From IMG/VR virus record IMGVR_UViG_3300048836_001186, positions 1 through 28,424 of that record: 28,424 nt of DNA, one strand, 5' to 3'. Shown in pieces: positions 900 through 15,259 of this stretch. The translations under genes were made by a program, and so were the position numbers. The stretch comes from a virus. Positions within the stretch are counted from its first letter, which is position 1. Every line of letters begins with the position of its first letter. A model generated the notes under the pieces. It did no database searches. It saw nothing but the letters and a program-made list of their open reading frames with translations, and had not been told where the DNA came from.

Positions 900-1629
<730 letters not shown>

Positions 1630-3337: not shown

Positions 3338-4057
3338 TTACTCGCTTCGATCACTGGTAGCCCATCCGTCGCGGAACTCGGCGAAAGCGACCCGGCTCAC
3401 GAACTTGGCATTGTCCTTCAGTTCATCACCGGTGTGGTAATGGGTCGCCCAGTTCTTGATCTCGAAGAAATCGCCCGATTCCGTATTCCAGATCGTGATC
3501 GAGCCGCCGAGTTCTGCCGCGCTGGCCATAATGAGTTGACCGGGCACATAGCCCGACCCCTTACCCGGCGCCGAGGCGAAGACCGGACCGTAGAGGCGAT
3601 CTTTGCCCTCATCGGCAAGGGTTGCCTTTAGGTCGTCGATCCATGCTTGGCTTTTCGACCGGTTGTTTCGCAAAACCCGCCCGAACTCCGCCGCCGTGTA
3701 GAGCATGACGCTCAGCTTGCCGTCCGGACGACCGAGTTCGATGTCGTCCGGGTCACCCGACCACCATTCAAGCGCAAGGCCATAGGATGCTTTGGATTTG
3801 GGTTTGTCGCGGTTGTCGAAGAGACAGACCTGCATGAGGGTTAGATCGGCCTTCGCGGGCAGGCCCCAAGGTTTCGGCGGCCTAATCCTCGACGGTAGCT
3901 CAACCGGCAGCTTGGCAACTATCCGCCCTTTAAGAGCATTGAGCATCGCCGGGTCTTCCAGGCTGTCGATGAAGGCAATGACATCGGATAGTGAAGTCTT
4001 ACGAACGGGTAGTTGAATCACGTTTTCGGTGATCGGTGCGGTGTTCTCGTTATTCAT
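3338..4057 (-). CDS. hypothetical phage protein
   Basis: A 239-residue soluble protein of unknown function. The start is well supported: ATG 4057 follows AAAGGAGAACT, a canonical Shine-Dalgarno at good spacing, unlike most genes here. Residues 1-60 are mainly helical and proline-flanked (IRPPKPWGLPAK). Residues 75-200 read as alternating strands with conserved-looking aromatic stretches (GLALEWWSGDPDD, GSGYVPGQLIMASAAELGGSITIWNTESGDFFEIKNW in part). There are no catalytic motifs I can name. A rho-independent terminator lies only 31 bases upstream on the same strand, so the gene may be controlled by attenuation or by its own short promoter. It is followed by the palindrome cluster and the repeat array. 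Confidence 0.75.
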   Translation of the reverse strand: MNNENTAPITENVIQLPVRKTSLSDVIAFIDSLEDPAMLNALKGRIVAKLPVELPSRIRPPKPWGLPAKADLTLMQVCLFDNRDKPKSKASYGLALEWWSGDPDDIELGRPDGKLSVMLYTAAEFGRVLRNNRSKSQAWIDDLKATLADEGKDRLYGPVFASAPGKGSGYVPGQLIMASAAELGGSITIWNTESGDFFEIKNWATHYHTGDELKDNAKFVSRVAFAEFRDGWATSDRSE

Positions 4058-4192: not shown

Positions 4193-4212
4193 TCCTATTT
4201 AGTATTTACACC
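4193..4212 (-). promoter_or_regulatory. double TAAATA element without a gene
   Basis: Two leftward copies occur seven bases apart (4203-4208 and 4196-4201), reading GTGTAAATACTAAATAGG. No start codon follows at the usual distance. The strong terminator lies about 75 bases downstream, so a transcript of roughly 100 bases is possible. Confidence 0.5.
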
Positions 4213-4385: not shown

Positions 4386-4410
4386 CTTGCATAAATATAA
4401 TTATGTCAAG
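4386..4410 (+). promoter_or_regulatory. TAAATA hairpin at the 4403 start
   Basis: CTTGCATAA pairs with TTATG-CAAG (one bulged T) around a six-base AT loop. The ATG at 4403 lies in the right arm, five bases after TAAATA (4392-4397). Here part of TAAATA is in the stem. Confidence 0.6.
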
Positions 4411-5225: not shown

Positions 5226-5725
5226 TAAAGCAACGCCTCACTTACGACCCTATAAATGGCTCATTTTATTGGAACTCGCTACCCGTTGTCGGCCCATGGC
5301 AGGATTCCTGGAATGTAAAGCACGCCGGTAAGATCGCGGGAACAATTCTGCATGGCTCAGACGCTGGATATATCGGTATCAGAATAGGTGACCGAAGATA
5401 TCGCGCTCATCGATTGGCCTTTATCTGGATGACGGGGCAAGCCCCCACCGTAATCGATCACATTGATGGTGATAAAGGTAACAACAAATGGTGCAATCTT
5501 CGCCCATGCACAACGGGTGAGAACAACATTAACACTAAAAGGTCTAAGAGAAACACGACGGGCTTCAAAGGTGTCTCGCCCTATCGAGGGAAATATCGCG
5601 CCACTATCTGTCGAGACGGCGTGTGGAAACAGATCGGGGTTTTCGATGATCCTTCGGTAGCTTCTGTTGCCTACCACGCCGAGGCGAACAAGCTGCACGG
5701 CGCGTTCCGGCGGCCCGGTGTCTAA
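5210..5725 (+). CDS. HNH-AP2 homing-type endonuclease
   Basis: The 171-residue protein has an HNH nuclease core: H67 in YRAHRLAFIWMTG, then IDHIDGDKGNN at 82-92 with the catalytic D83-H84 pair, and N96 in CNLRPC. A C-terminal AP2-type DNA-binding domain (about 117-163, TGFKGVSPYRGKYRATI) follows. This is the usual structure of free-standing phage homing endonucleases, which nick or cut related genomes lacking the gene and so spread themselves. An in-frame TTG lies one codon upstream, but ATG 5210 is chosen because it sits four bases after TAAATA. The gene is visibly less GC-rich than its neighbours (for example 5240-5560), as expected of a recent insertion. It overlaps the next HNH gene by eight bases. 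Confidence 0.9.
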   Translation: MDQHQLKQRLTYDPINGSFYWNSLPVVGPWQDSWNVKHAGKIAGTILHGSDAGYIGIRIGDRRYRAHRLAFIWMTGQAPTVIDHIDGDKGNNKWCNLRPCTTGENNINTKRSKRNTTGFKGVSPYRGKYRATICRDGVWKQIGVFDDPSVASVAYHAEANKLHGAFRRPGV

Positions 5726-6062
5726 GGGCGACCATCGCAGCGACGCGGCGGCAGCTTATCGCCGCCTCTACAGCCTAGCCGCTTGGCGCGGGAAGAATGG
5801 CCGACGACTTCAGCAGTTGAGGGAGGAACCGTTGTGTCGGTTCTGCCTCATCATCGGCACGGTCACCGAGGCGACGGTTGCCGACCACGTTCAAGCACAC
5901 AAGGGCGATGCCGACCTGTTCTGGGCCGGGCCTTTACAATCTCTTTGTGCTCCATGTCACAACCGGCTGAAGGCCCAGGTCGAAGCTCACGGCTACCACG
6001 ACCAATGTGATCACACAGGATGGCCGGTTTCCGACTCCCATCCGGCGAACCGCAAGCGATGA
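5718..6062 (+). CDS. HNH nuclease associated with DNA packaging
   Basis: The frame is longer upstream, but GTG 5718 fits best: it overlaps the stop of the homing endonuclease and gives a 114-residue protein of normal size. The motif order is CRFC (C40/C43), then D56-H57, then CAPCHNRL (C77/C80/H81). This is the zinc-bound HNH fold found beside terminases in HK97-like phages, where such proteins assist the large terminase in cutting DNA at cos sites. The position just upstream of the terminase genes supports that role. The end is basic and histidine-rich (HGYHDQCDH). No active-site residue appears to be missing. Confidence 0.85.
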   Translation: MSKGDHRSDAAAAYRRLYSLAAWRGKNGRRLQQLREEPLCRFCLIIGTVTEATVADHVQAHKGDADLFWAGPLQSLCAPCHNRLKAQVEAHGYHDQCDHTGWPVSDSHPANRKR

Positions 6063-6262: not shown

Positions 6263-6306
6263 TAAATAGTCAGAACGCCACAATATCGGCGAGCATAAAT
6301 AGAGTC
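6263..6306 (+). promoter_or_regulatory. two TAAATA elements before the 6307 gene
   Basis: Copies at 6263-6268 and 6296-6301 both face the gene, and the second is five bases from the ATG. Neither has a strong flanking inverted repeat. A different hairpin, GAGTC/GACTC (6302-6319), would place the ATG in its loop. Confidence 0.5.
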
Positions 6307-6807
6307 ATGACTACGACTCTTCCCGCCTGGATGCTGACTGCACGGGCCTGCATCGGTGTTAAGGAATATCCCGGTGCTCAAAACAACCCCCTGATTATGC
6401 GCTGGGCAACTCGCGCCGCTAAGTTCCTCGGCATCAAATACGATGGCGACCATGTTCCGTGGTGCGGTCTCTTCGCGGCCTATTGCGTGGTCGAGAACGG
6501 CCTCATCCCTCCCGGCATCGCTATCCGGGCCTCTGAGTGGGGAAAGTGGGGAGTGGCCTTGGCGAAGCCCTCGCCGGGCGCCGTCCTGGTCTTCACGCGG
6601 CAAGGCGGCGGACACGTCGGCTTCTATGTCAGTGAAGACGCGAGCTATTACCACGTCCTGGGCGGTAATCAGGGCGATGCGGTTTCCGTGGTCAAAATCG
6701 CGAAGTCGCGGTGTTCGGCCATCCGTTGGCCCGCCGGTGTCGCTCTTCCCAAGACAGGCCCGGTGTTCAAGGCCCTCGACGGCAAGGCTTCGACGAACGA
6801 AGCATGA
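6307..6807 (+). CDS. TIGR02594/NlpC-P60-like peptidoglycan hydrolase
   Basis: A 166-residue protein with the motif series of the TIGR02594 group of papain-like cysteine peptidases: PWCGLFAAYC with C53 as probable nucleophile, PSPGAVLVF at 89-96, GGGHVGFY with H103 as probable base, and YHVLGGNQGDAVSV with N121 as third residue. These proteins cleave peptide links in peptidoglycan and act as endolysins or entry hydrolases. No signal peptide or membrane segment is visible, so export would need a holin or delivery in the virion. Its position, between the packaging HNH gene and the small terminase, is unusual for an endolysin, which would normally be near a holin. The best holin candidate is at the far end of the window (28182). 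Confidence 0.85.
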   Translation: MTTTLPAWMLTARACIGVKEYPGAQNNPLIMRWATRAAKFLGIKYDGDHVPWCGLFAAYCVVENGLIPPGIAIRASEWGKWGVALAKPSPGAVLVFTRQGGGHVGFYVSEDASYYHVLGGNQGDAVSVVKIAKSRCSAIRWPAGVALPKTGPVFKALDGKASTNEA

Positions 6808-9524: not shown

Positions 9525-9545
9525 CATCGAGCTAAATACTCGATG
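9525..9545 (+). promoter_or_regulatory. TAAATA hairpin at the portal start (best example)
   Basis: CATCGAG and CTCGATG form a perfect 7-bp stem around the seven-base loop CTAAATA. The ATG of the portal gene is the last three bases of the right arm. Confidence 0.8.
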
Positions 9546-10814: not shown

Positions 10815-11422
10815 CGAAGAACATCATCGAACAACGGGCCTTCGCCCTCATCCTGGACAACACCGCCGACGACGACGAAGGCCGCTCGCTGAGCGGCTAT
10901 GCGAGCGTCTTCAATTCAGACTCTCTCGACCTCGGCGGATTCATCGAGCGGGTCGCGCCGACCGCGTTTGATCGCAGCCTCCAGGCCGCCGCCGCCGGTG
11001 AGGTCTCTATCCAAGCCTTGTGGTCGCACGATAGCCGCCAGCCGCTTGGATCGACGCGGGGCGGAAAGCTCACCCTGGCGAGTGATGAGCGCGGCCTTCG
11101 CTTCACCCTGGACACGACAAGGTTCACGCCCGCCCAACTCGACGCGGCCCGCGACGGCGATCTTCAGGTCAGCTTTGGCTTCCGGGTTCGCGAGGACACT
11201 TGGGAGCGTCGCGACGGCGGTCTTCCGCTCCGAACCCTTATCGACGTTGACCTGATCGAGATCAGCCCGGTCGTGAACCCGGCCTATCCGGCAACTGAAG
11301 CCGCCCTTCGTTCAATGGAAGAATGGGCGAAAACAGAAGAACGGACCACTGAAGATAAATACTCGGCCAGTGCTCGCGCTCGGCTGAGAATGAAGCTCAA
11401 GCTACACCAACGTAAGTCTTAA
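10811..11422 (+). CDS. prohead maturation protease, HK97 U35 family
   Basis: A 203-residue serine protease that cleaves scaffold domains from the assembled capsid protein before packaging. The catalytic His is H73 in ALWSHD and the Ser is S121 in LQVSFGF. The conserved LIEISPVVNPAYP (148-160) completes the fold. The N-terminal GRSLSGYASVF and FIERVAPTAF are also family marks. The last 35 residues are charged and basic and may be removed by self-cleavage. A TAAATA copy (11356) lies inside this 3' end, facing the capsid gene. Confidence 0.93.
   Translation: MTKNIIEQRAFALILDNTADDDEGRSLSGYASVFNSDSLDLGGFIERVAPTAFDRSLQAAAAGEVSIQALWSHDSRQPLGSTRGGKLTLASDERGLRFTLDTTRFTPAQLDAARDGDLQVSFGFRVREDTWERRDGGLPLRTLIDVDLIEISPVVNPAYPATEAALRSMEEWAKTEERTTEDKYSASARARLRMKLKLHQRKS
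11347..11372 (+). promoter_or_regulatory. TAAATA element inside the protease 3' end
   Basis: GATAAATACTCG (TAAATA 11356-11361) matches the usual element, but GCC replaces the start codon. Only distant CACTG/CAGTG arms flank it. It could be a promoter for the capsid gene 126 bases downstream. Confidence 0.45.
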
Positions 11423-11455
11423 AAGCCGATCCCCCTCAGTCCTAGCCAATCGCAC

Positions 11456-11490
11456 GGAGAAACCCAAATGATTGATTAGGACTATCGATG
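11456..11490 (+). promoter_or_regulatory. capsid leader: SD, 3-codon ORF and start hairpin
   Basis: GGAGA (11456-11460) stands 8 bases before ATG-ATT-GAT-TAG (11468-11479), a three-codon frame. ATTGAT (11471-11476) pairs with ATCGAT (11484-11489) around TAGGACT with one U-G wobble. The capsid ATG (11488) begins in the right arm. The geometry is that of the TAAATA hairpins with a different loop. Confidence 0.6.
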
Positions 11491-12690
11491 AATATCAAAG
11501 AACTAAGGGAGAAAGCCCTCCGCATCGAGCACGAAGCCCGCGCTCTACTCACCGACAACACCGAATTGGCCTCCGATACCGAAGCCCAATTTGATCGCAT
11601 GCTGGCCGAGGCTGATGCCCTCTCCGCCCGCGCCGACCGTCTCGCCGATCTCGAAGCCCGCGACGCAGCCCGCGCCGAGGCCGATCTCGAAGCCCGCCGC
11701 CCGGTCGAAGATCGTCAGATCGAAACCGCAAAACCCGCCTCGGCGGAAGATCGCGAAGCCGCCCTCTGGACCGGCTTCATCCGCGACACCCTGTCTCGTG
11801 AAGAGCGCAGTGAGTTCCGCGCCCAAACCGTAACCGGCACCGGCGCCGAGGGCGGATACCTCGTCCCTCAGACCCACTACGCGCAGATCGTTCGCTCGAT
11901 GGCCGCCTTCGGCCCGATGTTGAACCCGAACCTCGTCAATTTGGTCGAGACGCTGGGCGGCGGGCAATGGAACGTCCCGACCAACGACGATACCGGCAAC
12001 GCGGGCGCCCTGATCTCCGAAAACACGGCGGTCTCCGCCGCGTCTCTGACCTTCGGCACCAAGACCCTCGGCGCCCACAAATTCACGTCCAACCTGTTCA
12101 CCGTCTCTGACGAGATGTTGCAGGACTCGGCGTATGACGTTGTTAGCTTCGTCAACTCGGCCATCGGCGAACGCCTGGGCCGCGCTCTGAACGCAGCCTT
12201 CACGACCGGCGACGGTTCCGACAAGCCGCAAGGCATCGTTGGCGCGGCGACCTCGGCCTTCACCTCGGCGGCCAACACCACTGTCACGGCAGACGAAATC
12301 CTGACCCTGATCCACAGTGTTGACCCGGCCTATCGCGCCTCGGCGACGATGATGTTCAACGATGCGACCGCCCTGGTTCTTCGTAAACTGAAGGCCGAAA
12401 CGTCGGGCGAATACCTCTGGCAGCCGTCCATCCAGGCCGGTCAGCCGGGGACGATCTTCGGCCATAACTACGTGATCAACCCCGCCATGGCCTCTATCGG
12501 CGCCTCGACGAAGCCGATCTTGTTTGGCGACTTCAAGCGTTTCACGGTTCGCGCCGTGAAGGGGATCAACGTGGTTCGCCTCAATGAGCGTTACGCCGAT
12601 CAAGGACTCGTCGGATTCATCGGCTTCGCCCGTTACGACTCCGAACTCCTCGATTCGAAAGCCGTCAAGGTGATCACGATCAAGGCTTAA
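11488..12690 (+). CDS. major capsid protein, HK97 fold
   Basis: The 400-residue protein has the usual two parts. Residues 1 to about 90 are a charged coiled-coil scaffold (delta) domain (KELREKALRIEHEARALL and onward). The mature HK97-fold shell protein follows from about residue 110 (TVTGTGAEGGYLVPQTHY). Cleavage by the adjacent protease is expected between these parts. Family marks include LVNLVETLGGGQWNVPTND and FLVNP-type segments near TSNLFTVSDEMLQDSAYDV. The C-terminus (VRLNERYADQGLVGFIGFARYDS) is also typical. Expression should be the highest in the phage. It has its own leader with a Shine-Dalgarno and a strong terminator just downstream. Confidence 0.95.
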   Translation: MNIKELREKALRIEHEARALLTDNTELASDTEAQFDRMLAEADALSARADRLADLEARDAARAEADLEARRPVEDRQIETAKPASAEDREAALWTGFIRDTLSREERSEFRAQTVTGTGAEGGYLVPQTHYAQIVRSMAAFGPMLNPNLVNLVETLGGGQWNVPTNDDTGNAGALISENTAVSAASLTFGTKTLGAHKFTSNLFTVSDEMLQDSAYDVVSFVNSAIGERLGRALNAAFTTGDGSDKPQGIVGAATSAFTSAANTTVTADEILTLIHSVDPAYRASATMMFNDATALVLRKLKAETSGEYLWQPSIQAGQPGTIFGHNYVINPAMASIGASTKPILFGDFKRFTVRAVKGINVVRLNERYADQGLVGFIGFARYDSELLDSKAVKVITIKA

Positions 12691-12720: not shown

Positions 12721-12755
12721 AGGCCCCGGAAGTTCGCTTCCGGGGCTTTTGTTTG
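12721..12755 (+). terminator. rho-independent terminator after the capsid gene
   Basis: GCCCCGGAAG and CTTCCGGGGC form a perfect 10-bp stem closed by a TTCG tetraloop and followed by TTTTGTTT. It should reduce transcription into the tail genes, so the capsid mRNA would be most abundant. Confidence 0.92.
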
Positions 12756-12761
12756 CCCGTC

Positions 12762-14790: not shown

Positions 14791-14827
14791 TAAATACCTC
14801 CGAACCACCAACTAATTCGGAGAAAAT
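14791..14827 (+). promoter_or_regulatory. TAAATA plus SD-sequestering hairpin before tail tube gene
   Basis: TAAATA (14791-14796) is followed one base later by CTCCGAA (14798-14804), which pairs perfectly with TTCGGAG (14816-14822). That right arm holds the Shine-Dalgarno GGAG for ATG 14828. The ribosome site would be hidden unless the hairpin opens. Confidence 0.6.
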
Positions 14828-15259
14828 ATGTCAACAATTACGCCGGTCCTCGGCCACCAACTTCTCGTTCAGATCGGCACGCCTTCCGGTAACACTGTCG
14901 TCTATGCTCACACCAACGTCGTCAACACTACGCGAGGCGTTACGTTCTCGACCGATGTCGAAACCGACGACCTCGTTGATCTCGCCGATCAATCCGCTCC
15001 GGCTCAAAAGTTCCGCCGGGTGAAATCCCTCGACGTGAAGATCGACGGCGCCGGGATGATGGATGCAACTTCGACCTATGAATGGATCGAGCGTTGGGAA
15101 GCCGGATCGGAGTTCACCGCCCGCGTCACCGATGGCAATTGGACGATCACCGGCCCGTTCGTCCTGACGAGCTTCCAAATCTCCGCAGACCGGACCAAGC
15201 CGGGCGAGAACCAACTCACGCTTGAGCAGGCCGGTCCCGTCGTCGTCGCCGAGGTCTAA
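14828..15259 (+). CDS. major tail (tube) protein
   Basis: The 143-residue beta-rich protein fits the siphophage tail tube family: GHQLLVQIGTPSGNTVVYAHTNV at the start, then ETDDLVDLADQ, VKSLDVKIDGAGMMD, YEWIERWEAGSEFTARV and TITGPFVLTSFQISADRTKPGE toward the end. Hexameric rings of this protein stack to form the tube. No C-terminal Ig-like domain is present. It is one of two structural genes here with a true Shine-Dalgarno (GGAGAAAATATG), consistent with very high expression. The stop overlaps the next start (TAATG). Confidence 0.9.
   Translation: MSTITPVLGHQLLVQIGTPSGNTVVYAHTNVVNTTRGVTFSTDVETDDLVDLADQSAPAQKFRRVKSLDVKIDGAGMMDATSTYEWIERWEAGSEFTARVTDGNWTITGPFVLTSFQISADRTKPGENQLTLEQAGPVVVAEV

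Follow-up and report, generated by a model that had tools for sequence, protein, structure and literature searches.

Putative TAAATA late promoters set in inverted repeats at phage start codons, and an unusual capsid leader with a three-codon ORF

The late promoters of phage T4 have no -35 element and consist of the octamer TATAAATA, a -10-like box at positions -13 to -6 (PMC2988020), while the late promoter version of phage Aeh1 is CTAAATA (PMC1524935). In the T4 genes e, soc, 49 and I-TevI, a hairpin in the longer transcripts hides the ribosome site; the late promoter is encoded by the 5' strand of this hairpin, which late transcripts evade (PMC3014915). In the T4 genes 25 and 38, the Shine-Dalgarno sequence (SD) lies 22-27 nt from the AUG with a hairpin between the two (PMC3014915). 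A repeated element located 3-7 nt before many start codons was described as the SAS, GGGATAGGAGCCC, in cluster K mycobacteriophages (PMC3203893). In Caulobacter, translation of 375 leaderless mRNAs is about as efficient as that of mRNAs with a leader (PMC4117421).

The window analysed here, i.e. the whole stretch of 28,424 nt of the virus record IMGVR_UViG_3300048836_001186, comprises 24 copies of TAAATA compared to 1.6 expected, and most of them lie 4 or 5 nt ahead of a start codon (N4 and N5 sites). In the literature covered, which was limited to open-licence papers, no TAAATA start element is described for such phages. The boxes of the window are as follows.

1612-1617, minus strand: TAAATA-N4-GTG box of the leftward DNA methyltransferase gene (900-1607)
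4392-4397, plus strand: TAAATA-N5-ATG box
4920, 5200, 6296, 6816, 7834 and 10801, plus strand: further TAAATA boxes of the N4 or N5 type
9526-9545, plus strand: start of the portal gene with a hairpin of the CATCGAG-CTAAATA-CTCGATG class, TAAATA at 9533-9538 and ATG at 9543
11356-11361, plus strand: TAAATA box nearest upstream of the capsid gene, lying in the protease frame; a hairpin follows at 11362-11388
12766, 13396, 15857, 18879 and 20173, plus strand: further TAAATA boxes of the N4 or N5 type
14791-14827, plus strand: TAAATA and the inverted repeat CTCCGAA/TTCGGAG, which holds the SD of the major tail gene
28170, plus strand: TAAATA box of the N6 type

The arms of the inverted repeats differ from gene to gene (CATCGAG/CTCGATG, ATCTCG/CGAGAT, TCTGG/CCAGA). 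At box 18879 the arms also differ between the window and its nearest relative G001, yet both pair. The hairpin at the portal start, which the initial annotation had used as its comparator, proved to be real (-8.9 kcal/mol, 2 of 200 shuffles as good). A CHAP-domain endolysin-like gene (6307-6807) starts 5 nt after the TAAATA at 6296, a setting like that of the T4 lysozyme. On the minus strand at 4196-4208, two TAAATA boxes lie 7 bases apart (TAAATACTAAATA) with no start codon nearby, and a leftward ORF of 239 aa (3338-4057) follows about 140 bases downstream of them. G001 (L002, 11268-11822) carries about 550 extra bases just 3' of the capsid gene, corresponding to 12754-12757 of the window, and these bases directly precede the TAAATA box that belongs to the gene of the head-tail adaptor.

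Relatives of the phage were collected by alignment of the large terminase (TerL), two more were added by alignment of the capsid protein, and a genome search contributed a Caulobacteraceae lysogen; all records other than the lysogen are virus contigs and possibly fragments. A single-sequence search of bacterial genomes with the capsid protein gave no match, and blastn against phage records returned a distant Rhizobium phage only. Across twelve phages, 92 sites with TAAATA 4-5 nt before a start were determined, 56 of them N4 and 36 N5, and an SD-like tetramer was present in only 2, leaving 90 of the 92 without one. Several pattern-scan matches in AT-rich contigs (e.g. L031, L038, L041 and L048) were rejected, as they are single sites in unrelated contigs that look like chance or coding matches. 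While the TAAATA core is invariant across the collected sites by construction, its surroundings showed no -35 signal, with all columns upstream of -13 at or below 0.28 bit (63 sites). In the same 63 sites the base before TAAATA was mostly C or A and the one further upstream G or C. The base just before the ATG was biased as well, being G in 46 of the 56 N4 sites and C in 29 of the 36 N5 sites, which may reflect the base at which the RNA starts.

When the 5' flanks of the sites were swapped, the real flanks paired across TAAATA far better, with a z of -12.3 overall, -9.3 within phages and -10.1 with the window left out. In G014 and G016 the hairpins were weak, with z values of -0.8 and -1.8. 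Since these tests rest on predicted energies and the sites of one phage may share ancestry, the z values indicate a strong effect but are not exact figures. The initial annotation had argued, from the capsid start, for structure rather than promoter. Structure near gene starts is indeed real genome-wide (z -12), but this does not extend to the small hairpin at the capsid start described below. Occlusion of the AUG was considered as the specific target at N4 and N5 sites but is not claimed here, since swapping the flanks left the start codon no less paired (0.37 for real and 0.40 for swapped flanks); it was more open (0.70) only for RNA assumed to start with this codon.

The capsid and major tail proteins are usually the most abundant proteins of a virion. 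In the relatives of the clade, the genes of both carry TAAATA 26-41 nt upstream of the start, and in nearly all of these leaders TAAATA is followed by an inverted repeat with the SD in its 3' arm, as for example TCTCCGAGA/TCTCGGAGA, AACTCCA/TGGAGTT and CTCCGGA/TCCGGAG. In the window, the major tail protein gene (14828-15259, PHROG match) shows this arrangement. The real leaders fold better than swapped ones (z -9.5). For 22 leaders with an SD, the predicted probability of the SD being unpaired was 0.12 in read-through RNA, 0.15 for a start directly after TAAATA and 0.36, i.e. partly open, for a start 6-8 nt after TAAATA. For these 22 leaders the SD is thus predicted to be hidden when the RNA reads through and to be freed when it starts locally, which was predicted neither for the SD of the window capsid gene nor for the AUG at N4 and N5 sites. 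In the capsid leaders of G006 and G104, TAAATA itself lies within the stem. This suits a promoter and speaks against an RNA element presented in a loop. With TAAATA 26-41 nt upstream of SD-led capsid and tail starts, and sometimes in a stem, the preference for structure over promoter is not supported.

In the 2.6-Mb genome of the Caulobacteraceae lysogen, 12 of 13 TAAATA-N4/5-RTG sites fall into the 33-kb prophage stretch, and hence the element belongs to the phage. The pattern was absent from portal relatives at 43-59% identity (L005-L017) and from bacterial prophage relatives with a TerL about 50% identical. The contig L028 (10,242 bases), whose podophage-type portal and coat genes belong to P22-type families and are not related to those of the window, carries the same TAAATA hairpins; its capsid leader is a hairpin too, without TAAATA and with the SD-like sequence AAGGA as part of the loop. 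The presence of the elements despite unrelated head genes implies either that the element moved between phage types or that the phages have a host or a factor in common. Searches for sigma-70 regions 2 and 4 (Sigma70_r2, r4) gave no match in these records, most of which are fragments, and a T4-type gp55 may escape the models. A conserved ORF of 125 aa was considered as a candidate regulator and turned out to be an HNH endonuclease. This ORF, which resembles HNH endonucleases and measures about 110-125 aa, lies upstream of the terminase genes (window 5724-6056; L352 6250-6627) and is conserved at 49-68% identity in every clade member for which enough sequence is available. The prophage G104 additionally contains a Ros/MucR regulator gene (Pfam ROS_MUCR; L353 13298-13744), and G006 has a homologue of it (L078 11512-11994, 55% identity); both are possible regulators.

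We assume, with moderate confidence, that TAAATA is the -10-like core of phage-specific late promoters without a -35 element, that the hairpins silence read-through RNA, and that the capsid gene of the window is served by coupling to a mini-ORF. Every box would be set in or beside an inverted repeat, so that read-through RNA from upstream, having both arms, would fold over the ribosome site, while RNA begun at the box, about 5-6 nt downstream of it, would be without the 5' arm and stay open. With such starts, the mRNA of most late genes, which have TAAATA-N4/5-ATG and no SD, would be leaderless or nearly so, and that of the capsid and major tail genes would have a short leader with an SD freed only in locally started RNA. 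A T4-like start would coincide with the A of the ATG at N5 sites but fall one base late at N4 sites, which counts against this assumption. The negative sigma-domain searches, the weak hairpins of G014 and G016, the start codons at N4 and N5 sites being paired no more than with exchanged flanks and the merely partial opening of the freed SDs likewise speak against it.

Two other explanations of the TAAATA elements have to be considered. The hairpins could be RNA operators, in which a phage protein would bind the (C)TAAATA loop and control translation, as known from the MS2 coat protein and T4 gp43. The phage specificity of the elements would agree with this, and within the window TAAATA is usually the loop, with varying arms and a fixed distance to the start, which is the classic operator signature. 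However, the hairpins of G014 and G016 are weak while the word and its spacing persist, and at the capsid and tail genes TAAATA is found outside the loop or in the stem, 26-41 nt from the start, so that we regard an operator as unlikely. That TAAATA is a host feature taken over by the phages, such as a promoter or a signal for leaderless expression, is extremely improbable. Caulobacter does have many genes that lack an SD or a leader (PMC4117421), but the confinement of all except one of the lysogen's sites to its prophage and the missing pattern in the prophage relatives with the half-identical TerL contradict it, and on the former ground it was set aside as largely refuted.

The capsid gene of the window is the odd one out and, in the promoter reading, a derived case of the TAAATA system. 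Its start region comprises the following features.

11438-11483, plus strand: leader hairpin of 14 bp in the predicted fold, 8+6 pairs with one 1x1 mismatch (11446/11475)
11456-11459, plus strand: GGAG Shine-Dalgarno sequence in the loop of the 14-bp hairpin, 8 nt before the mini-ORF ATG (from sequence and fold)
11468-11479, plus strand: three-codon mini-ORF ATG ATT GAT TAG, found here and in the identical-leader relative G001
11471-11489, plus strand: small hairpin ATTGAT-TAGGACT-ATCGAT (-3.2 kcal/mol; equalled by 26 of 200 shuffles)
11478-11481, plus strand: SD-like AGGA in the 3' arm of the 14-bp hairpin, 6 nt before the capsid ATG (from sequence; predicted unpaired probability 0.00)
11488-12690, plus strand: major capsid protein gene (PHROG major head protein match; M1 invariant in six capsids)

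The product is an HK97-type major head protein according to the PHROG match, and its start at ATG 11488 is confirmed by the alignment of residue 1 in all six divergent capsids compared. The initial annotation had described a small hairpin at this start and read it as a shape conserved from the portal gene, with possibly high, SD-driven capsid output through termination and reinitiation at a three-codon ORF. Its letters and geometry were correct: the arms lie at 11471-11476 and 11484-11489 with a single T-G wobble (11473/11487), the 7-base loop TAGGACT occupies 11477-11483 and is followed by 4 nt up to the ATG, the ORF is present with its TAG 8 nt upstream of the capsid ATG, and TAAATA is absent from the region. 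Nevertheless, conservation of the shape could not be upheld. The small hairpin is not beyond chance (z -1.2), and its arms are missing from the printed leaders of eight non-identical relatives.

By contrast with the small hairpin, the 14-bp hairpin reached -17.7 kcal/mol with a z of -4.4, and none of 200 shuffles was as good. It is the predicted dominant structure of the capsid leader, and since it uses the same bases, the two hairpins compete. No Rfam covariance model matched the window at gathering thresholds. The 3' arm of the 14-bp hairpin includes the body of the mini-ORF as well as the AGGA, and the capsid gene thus has an SD-like sequence of its own, which is hidden in the stem. The initial annotation had directed a good SD to the mini-ORF and not to the capsid gene; the GGAG for the former exists, but the statement is incomplete as to the latter, which has this AGGA.

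The intergenic region before the capsid gene lacks TAAATA, and the box nearest to the gene, at 11356, is 126 nt upstream. It has CTGAAGATAAATAC in common with box 14791 of the major tail gene, but being in a coding frame it could be a chance occurrence. Local initiation at 11356 cannot remove the 14-bp hairpin, which lies wholly downstream of the box, and the predicted RNA begun there still folds it with the AGGA unpaired at 0.00. Instead, ribosomes would load at the GGAG in the loop, read the three codons and thereby open the 3' arm, stop 8 nt before the capsid ATG and pass to the capsid start by termination-reinitiation or coupling. Judging from the predicted fold, with an SD in the loop and the mini-ORF body forming the arm that hides the SD-like sequence of the capsid gene, such a coupling is plausible in this one phage, and the mini-ORF probably loads ribosomes that pass on to the capsid start.

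It is not conserved, however. The nearest relative G001 (92-94% nt identity) has a capsid leader identical over 230 nt and therefore gives no test of conservation. The mini-ORF was missing from all eight non-identical clade members (G006, G013, G014, G015, G016, G017, L251 and G104), whose printed leaders are also without the ATTGAT/ATCGAT arms; relatives of this kind are what the initial annotation had itself named as refuting its reading. Exact-pattern scans, one for the mini-ORF and one for the 5' arm of the 14-bp stem, matched G001 only. Among 35 wider relatives, 34 have no mini-ORF and one has an SD-led one with the start GTG, while 29 of the 35 carry an SD at the capsid start. For the clade, SD-driven capsid translation as proposed by the initial annotation holds, whereas a conserved termination-reinitiation leader was found in none of the eight. 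Since GGAG-N8-ATG at 11456-11470 looks like the capsid starts of the relatives, the mini-ORF may be a former capsid start that was displaced by a short insertion.

Apart from coupling through the 14-bp hairpin, the capsid start can be explained in other ways. A possible alternative is that the mini-ORF is neutral and that the capsid starts directly from the AGGA when the 14-bp hairpin breathes or melts. The distance of 6 nt is right and an SD at the capsid start is the rule among the wider relatives, but the predicted fold pairs the AGGA completely and a better SD is offered in the loop. The model of the initial annotation, with a conserved small hairpin and reinitiation after the mini-ORF giving high SD-driven output, has the letters and the spacings of GGAG and stop codon on its side; with the small hairpin within chance and in competition with the 14-bp hairpin, and the mini-ORF missing in the eight clade members, we consider it quite improbable. 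Finally, the GGAG could form a split ribosome-binding site for the capsid AUG 28 nt away, the small hairpin located between them shortening the distance, as known from T4, where 27 nt are shortened to 11 (PMC3014915). Besides the weakness of this hairpin, its outer pairs take in the A and T of the start codon, and the 14-bp fold excludes the arrangement, which makes it very improbable.

We tentatively extend the promoter reading to a whole family of temperate phages of alphaproteobacteria, together with one phage or more whose head module is unrelated. These would carry many hairpin-wrapped TAAATA late promoters without a -35 element at their start codons, translate their late genes only from locally started, mostly leaderless RNA and depend on a factor unrelated to known sigma domains. 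If the promoter reading is right, a trick of few T4 genes would organise whole genomes of unrelated temperate phages, with one inverted repeat per gene tying translation to local transcription. Start sites and expression classes of late genes would be predictable from sequence alone, a putative new phage promoter-specificity factor would be indicated, and the Caulobacteraceae would offer a testable system of leaderless expression. The leaderless reading suits Caulobacter, as leaderless mRNAs are well translated there (PMC4117421).

Compared to the described systems, the elements resemble the SAS of cluster K in being short, repeated before start codons and symmetric in their outer bases. The SAS, however, occurs with an SD, has fixed arms and belongs to non-structural genes, whereas the elements described here have no SD, varying arms and mainly structural genes; tested against the consensus GGGATAGGAGCCC, they did not agree with it, holding TAAATA and no SD. 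With the T4 genes 25 and 38, the capsid leader of the window shares an SD far from the AUG with a hairpin between (GGAG 11456 and AUG 11488), but it has a stronger competing hairpin and a mini-ORF in between. The T4-type late promoters correspond in the short AT box, placed about one helical turn ahead of where the RNA is likely to start, the missing -35, the many copies and the strongly kept core. Here, only TAAATA is kept, the sequence after the box is GC-rich and the searches for sigma domains were negative, and the flanking bases of the sites are close to the Aeh1 form and not to the T4 octamer TATAAATA. In the T4 genes e, soc, 49 and I-TevI, the SD or AUG is likewise hidden in the longer RNA, with the promoter box in or before the 5' strand; while this is known for few genes in T4, the putative arrangement described here concerns the majority of late genes in unrelated temperate phages, whose starts mostly lack an SD.
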